Assembly: GCA_020721945.1 (NCBI GenBank)
Contig: DYLT01000013.1
Span: 1-33,008 of the forward strand
DNA length: 33,008 nucleotides
Source of the DNA: Blastopirellula marina
GTDB lineage: Bacteria > Planctomycetota > Planctomycetia > Pirellulales > Thermoguttaceae
Direction: 5' to 3'
The position numbers were made by a program, and so were the translations under genes. Shown piece after piece: positions 27,395 to 31,366 of this stretch (position 1 is its first letter; every line of letters begins with the position of its first letter). The notes beneath the pieces were generated by a model. The model searched no databases, was not told the DNA's origin, and worked only from the letters and a program-made list of their open reading frames with translations.

Positions 27395-27805
27395 TTAGCG
27401 GCTGGCACGGGACGCAGATGGAGCCACGACGATCGTCGCACCGGTGGATCCGCTCCAGTGCATCGGGTGATTGGCATTCCCCGAACGCCACGCCGGGCCG
27501 TAGTCACCATGAACCGGATCGACCCCGGCTACGGGGCGGGCGTTGCTCAACCCGTGCCACCGCAGTGCCGTCAGCCGGCGCAGTCGCTCCGATGCCCGAA
27601 ATTCGGCCTTCTGCCGAACCCCAGTCTGGGGGTCCTTGTATTGCCGCATGTACTGCTCGTAAAACCACATCTCGGGTGTGGCAGCCAATTCGCCGGGCGA
27701 GATCGAGACCGTGGCCTTACTCTCGGCCGGGGGGTTTGGCGACTTGCCAAGCGCCGGCACAGACAGAAGCAACGAAGCGCAAAGCGCGAATGGCACCCGC
27801 TTCAT
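27395..27805 (-). CDS. small secreted conserved hypothetical protein (136 aa)
   Basis: The start at 27805 is chosen because AGGAG lies 8 bases upstream; two ATG codons slightly further up (27811, 27829) are badly spaced. Residues 1-20 are a signal peptide (MKRVPFALCASLLLSVPALG). The mature part carries TPEMWFYEQYMRQYKDP and VRQKAEFRASERLRRLTALRWHG in succession, then SNARP and YGPAW. This tryptophan/arginine pattern resembles short exported planctomycete proteins of unknown function that I have seen before; I cannot name a domain. It lies 213 bases downstream of the anti-sigma gene on the same strand, so a functional link to the ECF pair is possible but unproven, and no copy of the ECF-type promoter element precedes it. 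Confidence 0.72.
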   Translation of the reverse strand: MKRVPFALCASLLLSVPALGKSPNPPAESKATVSISPGELAATPEMWFYEQYMRQYKDPQTGVRQKAEFRASERLRRLTALRWHGLSNARPVAGVDPVHGDYGPAWRSGNANHPMHWSGSTGATIVVAPSASRASR

Positions 27806-28018
27806 GGGCATGTCTCCTATATCGGCCATGAGCCTTCTCGTGGATCTTCGCGCTGGTGCGCGGCAAGGTCGCCCCCAGACGAAATCAGCGCGAACTCGTA
27901 ATCTCCCTTTCGGCCCGCCGACTGCCGAGACATTAGGAGGAGTGCGCGAAATTTTCCGAATCGACCCGAAAGTCGGAAAGGTGGGAGAATGCCGGCAAAC
28001 ACGCAGACTGCGCGGTCT

Positions 28019-28834
28019 TCAGGCCACGGGGCCCACGCTCACCGCAAGGAACTGCTGATAGCCGCGATTGCCTGCTTCCACGGCCAAGGCGTAGACCAAC
28101 CCCCCTTCCTGCCACATGACCAGCGAACGGTTTCCCGTCGTGACCGTGGGTTGATAGTAGTCCGGGGCATCGGGAAGCATGGCCGTCGCGCGGATCACGT
28201 AGAGCGTCGCGCGAACGCCGCTGGGGTCCGTCAGATCGTACGCGACCCCCTGACATCCCAGAAAATCGCGCACCGTGCGCCATGTGGTCCCGGGGTAGAT
28301 CACCACGGCTGGGCTGACCGGGTGACTCGCTGGCGCCGTCTCGATCGATTGCCCGAGTCCGTGAAGCCCCCCTTCCAGGTCACCACGAAACTGCTCAAAG
28401 GCGAGGTTCCAGTCGATCGAGCCGCCGAGATCTCGCGGCGTGCGTCCGAACCAGATGCACACGAACAATACCGCGGCCGAGGCCGCAACCACACCCCACA
28501 ACAGCCGCAACCGCCAAGGCCGTGGCCTGACCATCGCCGACGACCCCGTCGTATCTACAGGGGGAGTCACATCAACCGAACTGTGGGTTCTCGCAGCGTC
28601 CAACCGGGCGAGGATTCGTTCCTGAAGTCCTTTGGGCACGGAAACGTCGCTAAAGGCGGCGGTCAGCGACGCATCCAGCCGGCGGAGCCGTTCGTAAAAG
28701 TCGTCCAGTTCAGGCGATGCGGCTAATTCGGCCAGAAGCCGTTCTTCCAGGGGGTCGGACGATTCGGCGTCGCCCAGCCGGCATGCCTCGAGCAGTTCCA
28801 GGAGACGAGGATCGCGGATCGGGCCTTCGTGCAT
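28019..28834 (-). CDS. membrane-anchored anti-sigma factor (partner of the ECF sigma factor)
   Basis: This 271-residue protein begins 4 bases after the sigma gene's stop, with GAGGA from the sigma gene's last codons serving as its ribosome site. The N-terminal cytoplasmic part (1-105) is helical and acidic, ending in VPKGLQERILARLDAA (66-81). A single transmembrane helix spans about 111-129 (LLWGVVAASAAVLFVCIWF). The outer domain (about 130-271) includes TTWRTVRDFLGCQGVAYDL and VMWQEGGLVYALAVEAG. The classic HxxxCxxC zinc motif of ZAS anti-sigma factors is not present. By position and shape it should hold the sigma factor at the membrane until an envelope signal arrives; that signal is unknown. 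Confidence 0.82.
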   Translation of the reverse strand: MHEGPIRDPRLLELLEACRLGDAESSDPLEERLLAELAASPELDDFYERLRRLDASLTAAFSDVSVPKGLQERILARLDAARTHSSVDVTPPVDTTGSSAMVRPRPWRLRLLWGVVAASAAVLFVCIWFGRTPRDLGGSIDWNLAFEQFRGDLEGGLHGLGQSIETAPASHPVSPAVVIYPGTTWRTVRDFLGCQGVAYDLTDPSGVRATLYVIRATAMLPDAPDYYQPTVTTGNRSLVMWQEGGLVYALAVEAGNRGYQQFLAVSVGPVA

Positions 28835-28838
28835 CGAC

Positions 28839-29366
28839 TTATCCTCGCTTGTCGGTTGGGCGATGGCGTCCCAATTGCGGCTCGAACAGATAGCTTCGCA
28901 AGAGCGCCTTGGCCCTGGCGAGCCGACTCATCACCGTGCCGATAGGTAACCCCAATGTCTCAGCGATCTTGCGATACGGAAGCTCCTCGTAATAGAACAT
29001 CGCCACGACCAAGCGGTAATGCTCGGGCAGGTCATCGAGGGCACGCTGGAGCTGCTCCCGATCGATGGCCTCCGCCGAGGGGATCTCCGCAGGGATGGTG
29101 TCGACGTTCAACTCGATATCGCCCGCAGAAATGGGCTTCCGACGCCGACGTCCCTTAAGGAACACATGCCGGAGGATGGCGAACAACCAGCTCCGGGCAT
29201 TGGCGGCATCGCGCAACTGCGGCCACTTCTGTTGGGCGATGAGGTACACTTGCTGGGTCAAGTCTTCCGCCTCGGCCACCGAGCCCGTAAGCCGGTAGGC
29301 ATAGCGGTAGACGGCTTGATGATGTTCGGCGACGAGCCGGCGAATGTCGAGCGAGTCGTCGACCAT
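28839..29366 (-). CDS. ECF-type RNA polymerase sigma factor
   Basis: This is a sigma-70-family ECF factor of 175 residues counted from 29366. Region 2 includes AVYRYAYRLTGSVAEAEDLTQQVYL and the DNA-melting/-10 helix WLFAILRHVFLKGRRRR. Region 4 is DLPEHYRLVVAMFYYEELP and YRKIAETLGLPIGTVMSRLARAKALL, a helix-turn-helix that reads the -35 element. An upstream ATG at 29390 lies inside the spacer of the promoter at 29380-29410, upstream of its -10, so 29366 is the likelier start; the leader would then be only about 10 bases and would still carry AAGGG. The anti-sigma gene follows 4 bases later. The promoter matches those of two lipoprotein genes, pointing to self-regulation. Confidence 0.9.
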   Translation of the reverse strand: MVDDSLDIRRLVAEHHQAVYRYAYRLTGSVAEAEDLTQQVYLIAQQKWPQLRDAANARSWLFAILRHVFLKGRRRRKPISAGDIELNVDTIPAEIPSAEAIDREQLQRALDDLPEHYRLVVAMFYYEELPYRKIAETLGLPIGTVMSRLARAKALLRSYLFEPQLGRHRPTDKRG

Positions 29367-29379
29367 GGCAAGCCCTTGG

Positions 29380-29410
29380 GCAAGAGACACCGGCGAGCGA
29401 ATTTATTCCC
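29380..29410 (-). promoter_or_regulatory. ECF-type promoter of the sigma gene (copy 1 of 3)
   Basis: On the minus strand GGGAATAAA (29410-29402), 16 bases, then TCTTGC (29385-29380). Spacing and both boxes are shared with the elements at 29468-29498 and 30064-30094. It implies that the sigma factor transcribes its own operon. Confidence 0.72.
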
Positions 29411-29467
29411 GGATTAGACCCGGGCATCCGTCGTTCGCTTCGCCGCAGCCAGAATTGTAAACCCGGC

Positions 29468-29498
29468 GGGAATAAAATCCCAGCCGGCGGCATCTTCC
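29468..29498 (+). promoter_or_regulatory. ECF-type promoter of lipoprotein gene 1 (copy 2 of 3)
   Basis: GGGAATAAA (29468-29476), 16 bases, then TCTTCC (29493-29498). The leader to the ATG at 29563 would be about 58 bases. It is divergent from the sigma gene's element, with 57 bases between the two -35 boxes. Confidence 0.7.
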
Positions 29499-29562
29499 CA
29501 AGATGAGCCGGGCGGGAATGGTTCCTGCTCGCAAGAATCACCCCCTGACTGAGGGAACAGAC

Positions 29563-29847
29563 ATGAAGAAACTGCTCTCCCTGTTGCTGGTCGTCGGACT
29601 GGCTGTTGTGATCGGTTGCACGAAAGAGACGCCGAAGTCCAAGGCGAAGGTCGGCGCCCCGCCCGCCCCGCCCTCGGCGGCTGCCCCTGAGAAGGCCGCG
29701 CCGGCCGCTCCGCCCGCGGCTGGCGAAGCGAAGAAGGAGGCCCCCGCGGCTGGTGAGAAGAAGGAAGCCCCTGCGGCTGGCGAAGCGAAGAAGGACGCGC
29801 CGCCACCGGCTCCGCCTGCTGGCGAGAAGAAGGAAGAGAAGAAATAG
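29563..29847 (+). CDS. small Lys/Ala/Pro/Glu-rich lipoprotein 1
   Basis: This 94-residue product starts at 29563 behind GAGGGAA. Residues 1-18 form a lipoprotein signal peptide with lipobox VIGC, so C19 would be lipidated. The mature part is low complexity: imperfect repeats of AAGE(A)KKEAP (about 57-80), a PPPAPPA spacer and a lysine/glutamate tail. Such a chain would be unstructured and could reach from the membrane toward the cell wall or outer membrane. The signal peptide is closely similar to that of the 45-residue lipoprotein at 30160. Both are preceded by the ECF-type promoter, so they look like paralogous targets of the neighbouring sigma factor. The function is unknown. Confidence 0.8.
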   Translation: MKKLLSLLLVVGLAVVIGCTKETPKSKAKVGAPPAPPSAAAPEKAAPAAPPAAGEAKKEAPAAGEKKEAPAAGEAKKDAPPPAPPAGEKKEEKK

Positions 29848-29905
29848 CCTCCTTGGCCGGGGTGCCGGTGCCTAGGGGTGTCGCCCCCGGCTGAGCGAGC
29901 CCCCC

Positions 29906-29926
29906 GGCGAGGCTTGCCGCCTCGCC
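29906..29926 (+). repeat. short hairpin after lipoprotein gene 1
   Basis: GGCGAGGC and GCCTCGCC form an 8-pair stem around TTGCC, shortly before the large terminator hairpin. There is no T-tract; it may protect the transcript's end or be incidental. Confidence 0.4.
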
Positions 29927-29932
29927 GACCCC

Positions 29933-29995
29933 AAGACCGCGGGTCTCTGGCCAGACCCATCCCCGCGTGCCAGAGACCTCGCGGTCTTTCGTTTT
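29933..29995 (+). terminator. strong terminator after lipoprotein gene 1
   Basis: AAGACCGCG + GGTCTCTGGC (29933-29951) pairs with GCCAGAGACC + CGCGGTCTT (29969-29988). The stem is 19 pairs with one bulged T at 29979, and TCGTTTT follows. It separates the two lipoprotein transcription units, in agreement with each having its own promoter. Confidence 0.88.
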
Positions 29996-30063
29996 CGCAA
30001 GGCCGTCGCCAGCGAAGGCCGCGTGCGTCAAGGTGCAAGTTCCCGAAAATGCCTCTTGTTGCC

Positions 30064-30094
30064 GGGAATAAACCGCCTGCCGATCGCCTCTTGC
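30064..30094 (+). promoter_or_regulatory. ECF-type promoter of lipoprotein gene 2 (copy 3 of 3)
   Basis: GGGAATAAA (30064-30072), 16 bases, then TCTTGC (30089-30094), followed by a leader of about 60 bases to the ATG at 30160. It matches the sigma gene's own element in both boxes and spacing; the base before TCTTGC is also C in both. Confidence 0.72.
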
Positions 30095-30159
30095 TTCTGA
30101 GAGACGGGCAGGAGGGGTTTCTGCCCACAAGGGGCTTTCAAACGAGAGGGAATCCGACC

Positions 30160-30297
30160 ATGAAGAAGTTGCTCTGCCTGGTGTTGGCCGTCGGACTGGC
30201 CATCGTGCTCGGTTGCTCGAAGAGCGAGCCGCCCAAGAAGGCCCCGGACACCAAATCGGCGCCCGCCGCGGGCGACACGGCAAAGCCCAAGACCTAA
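30160..30297 (+). CDS. very small lipoprotein 2 (45 aa)
   Basis: The ATG at 30160 follows GAGAGGG at 9 bases. The first 19 residues, MKKLLCLVLAVGLAIVLGC, are a lipoprotein signal closely matching that of lipoprotein 1, with lipobox VLGC and lipidated C19. The 26-residue mature part is rich in K, P, A, S and D (SKSEPPKKAP then DTKSAPAAGDTAKPKT). It is shorter than lipoprotein 1 and lacks the AAGEKKEAP repeats. It has its own ECF-type promoter and ends in its own terminator at 30340-30394. It resembles the small lysis- or entericidin-like lipoproteins only in size; no function can be given. Confidence 0.75.
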   Translation: MKKLLCLVLAVGLAIVLGCSKSEPPKKAPDTKSAPAAGDTAKPKT

Positions 30298-30339: not shown

Positions 30340-30394
30340 ACCGGCCGCGGGCCCTTTACGGCGATTCCCGCCGGAAGCCCGCGGCCGGTTTTTT
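30340..30394 (+). terminator. strong terminator after lipoprotein gene 2
   Basis: ACCGGCCGCGGGC (30340-30352) and GCCCGCGGCCGGT (30377-30389) are perfect 13-base complements, followed by TTTTTT. The right arm and T-tract lie inside the last codons of the opposing gene that ends at 30356. Confidence 0.88.
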
Positions 30395-31366
30395 GTCGGC
30401 GCGGTCACCAGCCCGCAGCCCCGCTTGTGAGAAAGGCCCGTGGGCGAGGATCTGGCGTGCCAGCGCGACGTTCTCGGCCACCTGGTCCTTGTGCTTTTGC
30501 CACATGCCGACGAGTACCATGTCGGTGGGTTTGATGTGCTCGTAGGCGTATCGTAAGGCGGCCTCGATGGTCGCCCGCGATCCGCAATGCCGGCCCGCGG
30601 CCAGAACCTTGAAGGCGATACACGGCTTCGAGACCTGACCGATGGTGCGGGTCATCGACGTGCGAGCTTCTTCTTCGTAGGTTTCTTTGCCGGCCTTGGC
30701 CGGGTCGAGGCTGAACACCGATCGGTAGAAGCAGCACTGGTAGAAGTCGACGTCCCAGCCCTTGGTCTCGGCGTAGTCGATGACCTCGTGGTTGTGCGAC
30801 CCAAGCCCCACGAGCACGCCCGCATCGCGGATTCTCTTCAAGCTTTCCAGGGCCAGATCGAGTTTGCCTTGTTTCATGAGCCAATCGCTGGTGTTGCCCA
30901 CCTGCTGGATGCCCAACGGTGGCGGGTCCATGCGGACCAGCCGGGCAATCTCCCTCTGGACGGCATCGGCGTCTTGCGGCAGGGAATACAGCGTGGCGAT
31001 CCAACGCATCCGGTTGCCCCGCGCGAAGAACGTGCGGAGCATCTCCTCGATGGCCCCCTCGTTCGGGCGAAAGCCGATTTGGCAGGCGTTGATGCCCAGC
31101 GATTGGCAGTGTTCGAGCAGCGCGACCCCGCGCGACCGGTCGGCGGCGAAGTACTCGCGCATCTCGAGGTCCAGGGCACGCGACTGGTGAGAAACCCCCT
31201 TGATCGGATTGTGGCCCACCAGGAGCCGGCTGAGGTCGTGCTGGCCCAGGCGAACGGTCGGCAAGGGCGGCACGCCGCGGTCGTCGCTCGCCAAGAGGGT
31301 CGGGGCGGCGACCGCGGGCGCGGCAAGTGCCAGTGCGGCGAATTGCCGCCGCGAGACCAGACGCAT
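30356..31366 (-). CDS. Tat-exported aldo/keto-reductase-like TIM-barrel protein
   Basis: This 336-residue protein starts at 31366 behind GGAG. The N-terminus is a Tat signal (SRRQFAALALAAPAVAAP, 5-22). The remainder looks like a barrel: VRLGQHDLSRLLVGHNPIKG (38-57), GVALLEHCQSLGINACQIGF, then IAALYSLP-like and GVLVGLGSHNHEVIDYAE segments, ending with KPTDMVLVGMWQKHKDQVAENVALAR in two helices. The fold is that of aldo/keto reductases, but the DxxxxYG part of the catalytic tetrad is not visible, so oxidoreductase activity is doubtful. Its C-terminal codons overlap the opposing lipoprotein terminator. The porin-like gene lies 103 bases upstream on the same strand. Confidence 0.78.
   Translation of the reverse strand: MRLVSRRQFAALALAAPAVAAPTLLASDDRGVPPLPTVRLGQHDLSRLLVGHNPIKGVSHQSRALDLEMREYFAADRSRGVALLEHCQSLGINACQIGFRPNEGAIEEMLRTFFARGNRMRWIATLYSLPQDADAVQREIARLVRMDPPPLGIQQVGNTSDWLMKQGKLDLALESLKRIRDAGVLVGLGSHNHEVIDYAETKGWDVDFYQCCFYRSVFSLDPAKAGKETYEEEARTSMTRTIGQVSKPCIAFKVLAAGRHCGSRATIEAALRYAYEHIKPTDMVLVGMWQKHKDQVAENVALARQILAHGPFSQAGLRAGDRADKKPAAGFRRESP

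Follow-up and report, generated by a model that had tools for sequence, protein, structure and literature searches.

A predicted autoregulated ECF sigma factor and membrane anti-sigma factor with divergent small lipoproteins in Blastopirellula marina and other Pirellulales

Introduction

In the E. coli sigma-E/RseA/RseB and Pseudomonas AlgU/MucA/MucB systems, an ECF sigma factor is encoded next to a single-pass anti-sigma factor. The sigma-E promoter combines a −35 box GGAACTTTT with a −10 box GTCAAA (PMC1804206), while the C-terminal domain of RseB/MucB contacts RseA/MucA and the two-domain RseB/MucB protein responds to lipid signals (PMC7400510). Autoregulation is widespread, with about 55% of the ECFs that have predicted regulons being autoregulated (PMC8103513). 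At the RNA level, 5′ stem-loops stabilize bacterial mRNAs, for example those of recA and vacA (PMC7509114). For planctomycetes, ECF regulons with a predicted promoter are few, and those that have been tested are fewer still.

Here we describe a locus in a 33,008-nucleotide stretch of Blastopirellula marina DNA (contig DYLT01000013.1 of assembly GCA_020721945.1; the whole stretch is hereafter called the window), which likely encodes an autoregulated envelope-stress ECF sigma/membrane anti-sigma system with small lipoproteins as its main output. As in the sigma-E and AlgU systems, the ECF sigma gene is adjacent to the gene of a single-pass anti-sigma factor. The locus further resembles sigma-E in its predicted autoregulation via a GGAA-type −35 and a TC-type −10 box, and perhaps in a periplasmic domain, the predicted structure of which matches the RseB/MucB C-terminal domain best. 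It differs from sigma-E in that the −35 reads GGAATAA rather than GGAACTT, from RseA/RseB in that the RseB-C-like domain sits within the anti-sigma factor itself, and from the broad sigma-E regulon in that the regulon of this genome is tiny and made up of small lipoproteins. With autoregulated ECF/anti-sigma pairs in general it shares a sigma factor built of sigma2 and sigma4 only, the adjacent anti-sigma gene and an element before the sigma factor's own gene; unlike the canonical ECF promoter, AAT replaces AAC in the −35, and unlike these pairs it includes a divergent small lipoprotein gene with its own 5′ stem-loop.

The general kind of circuit is already known; the regulon itself is apparently undescribed. 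Our search of the open literature turned up no paper on ECF promoters of the GGGAATAA type and none that connects DUF4349 or DUF3379 with sigma factors; the promoter, the order-wide association with a small lipoprotein, the stem-loop in the leader and the RseB-C-like anti-sigma domain all appear to be undescribed there. The arrangement recurs in dozens of related genera. Order-wide conservation links the promoter, its cognate sigma factor, the anti-sigma factor and the main target to one another, and the system is predicted to sense envelope stress in bacteria whose membranes are unusual.

Results and discussion

Three copies of one promoter element surround an ECF sigma gene

The sigma gene (28839..29366, minus strand) encodes a protein of 175 aa with sigma2 and sigma4 domains only, matching Pfam Sigma70_r2 and Sigma70_r4_2 above cut-off and scoring 84.9 bits against TIGR02937 (sigma70-ECF; cut-off 42.9). 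The solved structures nearest to it are those of the ECF factors SigE/SigH/SigL. Its start codon, ATG 29366, lies 44 nt from the first base of the −35 box, a distance that is mostly 38–47 nt in orthologs. The mechanical ORF call had instead chosen GTG 29390, which falls inside or beside the element described below; this start was rejected, since the spacing of ATG 29366 fits that of the orthologs. The resulting leader is only about 10 nt long and is devoid of a stem-loop.

The element occurs before the sigma gene (29380..29410, minus strand; GGGAATAAA-N16-TCTTGC), before lipoprotein gene 1 (29468..29498, plus strand; GGGAATAAA-N16-TCTTCC) and before lipoprotein gene 2 (30064..30094, plus strand; GGGAATAAA-N16-TCTTGC). 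The sigma and lipoprotein 1 promoters are divergent, with 57 nt separating their two −35 boxes. Each copy spans 31 bases around a 16-base spacer with 0 mismatches, and the spacers are mutually unrelated. The first-pass annotation had reported these three copies with their coordinates, length and spacing, all of which proved exact, and had seen no fourth copy in the window; none was found with up to three mismatches allowed. Shuffled windows searched at three mismatches gave 0.55 matches on average, with at least 3 matches in 4 of 100 shuffles.

On the scale of the genome, GGGAATAAA-N15..17-TCTT has exactly 3 matches in 5,319,350 bp, all within the window, against 0 for the reversed control, in an assembly that is 91% complete and divided into 576 contigs, so that unlinked regulon members might escape detection. 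The motif, whose possible frequency at random positions had been raised as a concern, is therefore rare. Allowing two mismatches gave 21 matches in the genome versus 12 in the control, the extra ones being isolated, scattered sites. The three window sites were also recovered by a sequence-only promoter model derived from a gapless alignment of 35 sites from other genera only (E 0.008, 0.025 and 0.033), with no other site in the genome up to E 10. A second model, covering the element plus the lipoprotein leader, had only two matches in this genome, the leaders of lipoprotein genes 1 and 2 (E 1e-15 and 1e-12, respectively).

Aligned sites yield the family-wide consensus GGGAATAW-N16-TCTWA, relative to which the terminal −10 bases (G/C-C) are peculiar to this genome. 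All three sites of the window have GGAAT, as do the 40 tallied sites of relatives, which had been gathered with a GGGAAT pattern. The departure of the −35 from the usual ECF GGAAC, already pointed out in the first-pass annotation, thus amounts to a change of C to T.

Some candidate sites elsewhere were set aside. Matches to the exact pattern in five other genomes (G004, G037, G079, G081 and G082) have no sigma or small lipoprotein gene downstream; those of G079, G081 and G082 represent a single stretch in three copies and resemble chance occurrences within genes. The loose pattern GGGAATAW-N17-TCTW, which the reversed control gauges poorly, was matched in 103 of 119 genomes and is too lax to serve alone as a criterion of regulon membership; many of its unlinked matches fall inside long open frames.

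The element is conserved before orthologous sigma genes

Relatives of the anti-sigma factor were found in 37 of 119 genomes of Thermoguttaceae (Pirellulales), and the sigma gene precedes the anti-sigma gene at every one of the 36 loci from other genomes. Using a relaxed pattern and a search range of at most 220 nt upstream of the conserved sigma core, we recovered the element before 34 of the 36 orthologous sigma genes, versus 10 of 6021 background windows taken from the same loci (0.17%). The sigma genes at L084 (G088) and L092 (G006) have no recognizable element upstream. The sigma gene hence appears to be autoregulated through the element at its own promoter, a reading that is suggested by this conservation.

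The same conservation bears on how the three copies came about. A chance repeat or a duplicated upstream region might be considered, given that all copies lie within about 700 bp and that the two lipoproteins are probable paralogs; this origin is refuted by the unrelated spacers, the opposite strand of the sigma copy and the conservation before orthologs across genera and families, and we regard it as extremely improbable.

We also considered that the element might be bound by a conventional repressor or activator instead of serving as a promoter. In favor of this reading, its flanks are partly conserved as well in lipoprotein leaders, with a CCAGGGG spacer and a hairpin core GGA..TCC. However, the element consists of two blocks at a fixed 16-base spacing, separated by a spacer that is unconserved in sigma promoters, and it stands at a fixed distance from the sigma start codon. 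It contains no dyad, its −10 is close to the GTCAAA of sigma-E, its −35 is one base off GGAAC, and besides the sigma pair no regulator was seen conserved at the locus. A regulator site is consequently a very unlikely reading, and we treat the element as a promoter.

In relatives, the divergent gene encodes a small lipoprotein that reads MKKxxALxLxxxSxxxFxxGC and then continues as a short tail enriched in A, P, E, D, K or T. The element usually lies about 91–108 nt ahead of the start of this gene. The proposal of the first-pass annotation that the lipoproteins are targets is therefore in keeping with orthologous loci, and its broader claim that the sigma factor drives itself and both lipoproteins gains support from the conservation of the element, direct reading by the sigma factor being the probable link. 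The divergent lipoprotein with the same promoter is present at most Thermoguttaceae loci and in several other families of Pirellulales. The element-plus-leader model identified further leaders outside its training set, beside the sigma genes of many other Thermoguttaceae. Among the 13 leader loci that we read in other Pirellulales families, eight (G119, G150, G134, G147, G138, G180, G386 and G170) have a sigma/anti-sigma pair encoded on the other strand, in most cases less than 200 nt away, and the remaining five show no pair within the stretch read. In a genome of the same genus (G026), lipoprotein 2, its stem-loop and its element are kept, with about 85% DNA identity over the stretch; the contig ends within lipoprotein 1, and a gap in the assembly probably accounts for the missing sigma gene.

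The presumed anti-sigma factor has a predicted periplasmic domain with a moderate resemblance to the C-terminal domain of RseB/MucB

The gene that begins 4 nt downstream of the sigma gene (28019..28834, minus strand) encodes a protein of 271 aa that we presume to be the anti-sigma factor. The membrane anti-sigma factor postulated by the first-pass annotation agrees with this spacing, with the invariant pairing noted above and with the predicted architecture: the AF2 model comprises helices at residues 9–85, a single TM helix at 107–129 and a periplasmic alpha/beta domain at 142–265. Residues 30–102 match DUF3379 (PF11859) weakly and below the Pfam cut-off, as they do in 21 of 25 orthologs, a likeness that is limited to the N-terminal third. 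The motif HxxxCxxC of zinc-binding (ZAS) anti-sigma factors is absent from the anti-sigma factor of the window and is not among the conserved columns of its orthologs.

Modeled alone, the periplasmic domain reached a pLDDT of 91. In a fold search with this domain, the RseB/MucB C-terminal domain accounted for six of the seven best matches (Z 5.8–6.2, the next group being at 4.6), superimposing at 3.4–3.9 Å over about 90 residues, which correspond to RseB/MucB residues of about 211–311. Foldseek assigned probabilities of up to 1.00 to the same comparison, but with E about 0.01. No sequence match between the domain and RseB/MucB was found, the resemblance being structural only. A fold search with the whole-protein model likewise had the RseB/MucB C-terminal domain as its best match; the periplasmic domain fills the rows of this search, and no solved anti-sigma domain appeared among them for the helical N-terminal part. 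We consider the resemblance to RseB moderate, as a Z near 6 could reflect a common arrangement; the coherence of the top matches with the genomic context is nonetheless notable. The models thus give a hint that an RseB-like sensor part may be built into the anti-sigma factor.

Downstream of the anti-sigma gene, a gene at 27395..27829 (minus strand) encodes a conserved secreted protein with the family core SPGEL-x-TPEMWFYEQ. The protein has no Pfam match. Homologs occur at about 19 further loci and, in every comparison made, share the strand of the anti-sigma gene; this is likely the third gene of the locus.

The small lipoprotein genes have leaders with a conserved stem-loop

Lipoprotein 1 (94 aa; 29563..29847, plus strand) has a signal peptide with the lipobox VIGC and a tail rich in A, P, K and E, and lipoprotein 2 (45 aa; 30160..30297, plus strand) has the lipobox VLGC and a near-identical ortholog in G026. 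The lipobox-bearing signal peptides, MKKLLSLLLVVGLAVVIGC and MKKLLCLVLAVGLAIVLGC, end in Cys, a pattern that is kept in orthologs. A, P and K abound in both mature proteins, which are probably paralogous. A probable intrinsic terminator lies between the genes (29933..29995, plus strand), where a long, nearly perfect stem leads into a T-rich stretch, and another follows lipoprotein gene 2 (30340..30395, plus strand), with a stem and then TTTTTT. Since each gene has its own element and its own probable terminator, the two are probably separate transcription units.

Both leaders contain a stem-loop, at 29509..29531 for lipoprotein 1 (plus strand; 10 bp, loop TGG) and at 30106..30126 for lipoprotein 2 (plus strand; 8–9 bp). 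Across lipoprotein leaders the loop lies mostly 46–55 nt from the start of the −35, which, assuming that transcription begins directly after the −10, would place the stem-loop near the 5′ end of the mRNA. Stem-loops are borne by the orthologous leaders of loci L060–L095, L160 and L225–L241. Averaged over 14 leaders, the stem-loop region had a z of −1.79, versus −0.01 for the rest of the leader. Shuffling each sequence individually gave a combined p of about 4e-11 for the model-building set of leaders and 5e-11 for 24 others, values that are optimistic because the second set was partly found with a stem-containing model and neighboring genomes are related. Individually, 12 of these 24 reached p < 0.05, and several have no clear stem. 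A count of pairs on a MAFFT alignment of the leaders, in which the hairpins are misaligned, gave 4 pairs, equaled by shuffles, and was superseded by the per-sequence shuffles. The stems vary in sequence among genera around a recurring core GGA-nnGG-TTCC, and a search of Rfam returned no family at threshold. Support for the predicted stem-loop consequently comes from conserved position and stem strength rather than from a formal test of covariation.

Stabilizing 5′ stem-loops are also known from ompA mRNA. Like those of recA and vacA, the stem-loop described here lies near the predicted 5′ end, in this case on the mRNA of an envelope protein; unlike them, it has a partly conserved core, and a stabilizing role is suggested by analogy. 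The simplest role would be that of an mRNA-stabilizing 5′ element. A protein or RNA partner is possible too, in view of the partly conserved GGA..TCC core. As a conserved feature in the leader of a very small lipoprotein's mRNA, the stem-loop is separately testable.

Proposed mechanism

The sequence shows the element, its restriction to this one locus of the genome, its conserved position ahead of orthologous genes, the gene order and the stem-loop; from these we infer the reading of the element by the sigma factor, the signal, the release by the anti-sigma factor, and the roles of the lipoprotein and the stem-loop. The single-pass anti-sigma factor would hold the sigma factor as long as the cell is at rest. 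Release would follow when the RseB-C-terminal-domain-like periplasmic part of the anti-sigma factor senses an envelope signal, and the free sigma factor would direct RNA polymerase to GGGAATAW-N16-TCTWA promoters. Activation of its own operon would provide positive feedback, yielding more sigma and more anti-sigma factor, while the divergent small lipoprotein gene or genes would be activated by the same sigma factor. The stem-loop at the 5′ end of the lipoprotein transcript would stabilize the mRNA and make the tiny lipoprotein abundant.

A speculative extension, which we hold to be unlikely, is that the lipoprotein is also a gauge whose export or placement is monitored by the RseB-C-like domain of the anti-sigma factor. 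Sigma factor, anti-sigma factor and lipoprotein would then make up a self-sufficient homeostat that, in planctomycetes, governs lipoprotein traffic or the state of the outer membrane, and the stem-loop would add control at the RNA level.

Lipoprotein leaders without the sigma pair and regulon members beyond the locus

Four genomes (G020–G023) amount to natural deletions of the regulators. G020–G022 have lost both the sigma and the anti-sigma gene at the locus, leaving debris and the third gene opposite the lipoprotein; in G023, debris follows the element and the two genes are likewise absent from the locus. All four keep the lipoprotein and its leader (L238–L241; E 1e-8 to 8e-10), and their best sigma matches elsewhere in the genome are only 31–34% identical. 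Retention of the leader implies that another sigma factor probably reads the promoter there, or that the promoter outlived its reader, and it weakens the case for exclusive dependence on the linked sigma factor. Another ECF factor may therefore read the lipoprotein promoter, at least in these lineages.

Taken further, the element could be the promoter of another ECF sigma factor, or of several with overlapping specificity, the linked factor being one reader among others. The B. marina genome offers candidates, with at least 10 further ECF-like genes. Yet the element precedes the linked sigma gene itself in 34 of 36 genomes, which is the usual sign of a cognate sigma factor, and it occurs nowhere else in this genome, so that none of the other ECF genes has it upstream. 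We accordingly judge this reading to be quite improbable, and favor the linked sigma factor as the cognate one.

The first-pass annotation had described the regulon as compact. This is true of the present genome but not of relatives, in which at least one unlinked gene, encoding a DUF4349 lipoprotein and present in several sigma-bearing genomes, joins the regulon. Among the nine such genes checked, the element was found upstream of eight (L177, L178 and L180–L185), a count that accepts −10 forms such as TCATAC and TCCAAC; it was not found upstream of the gene at L179. One of the eight element-bearing cases (L177) comes from a genome, G084, with no recognized anti-sigma factor. In G094, G095 and G098, which are without the sigma system, the element was not seen upstream of the DUF4349 genes. 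No DUF4349 gene was found in the B. marina genome, in line with its small regulon.

Two further observations concern other genes preceded by the element. At L141 (G010:C1133) it stands before the gene of a larger lipoprotein (MTRLWILVLVLAVAVLGCSDSK...), possibly another regulon member. At L136 (G007:C271) and L150 (G028:C198), in two genera, it precedes genes for small membrane proteins that we take to be DUF2784-like.
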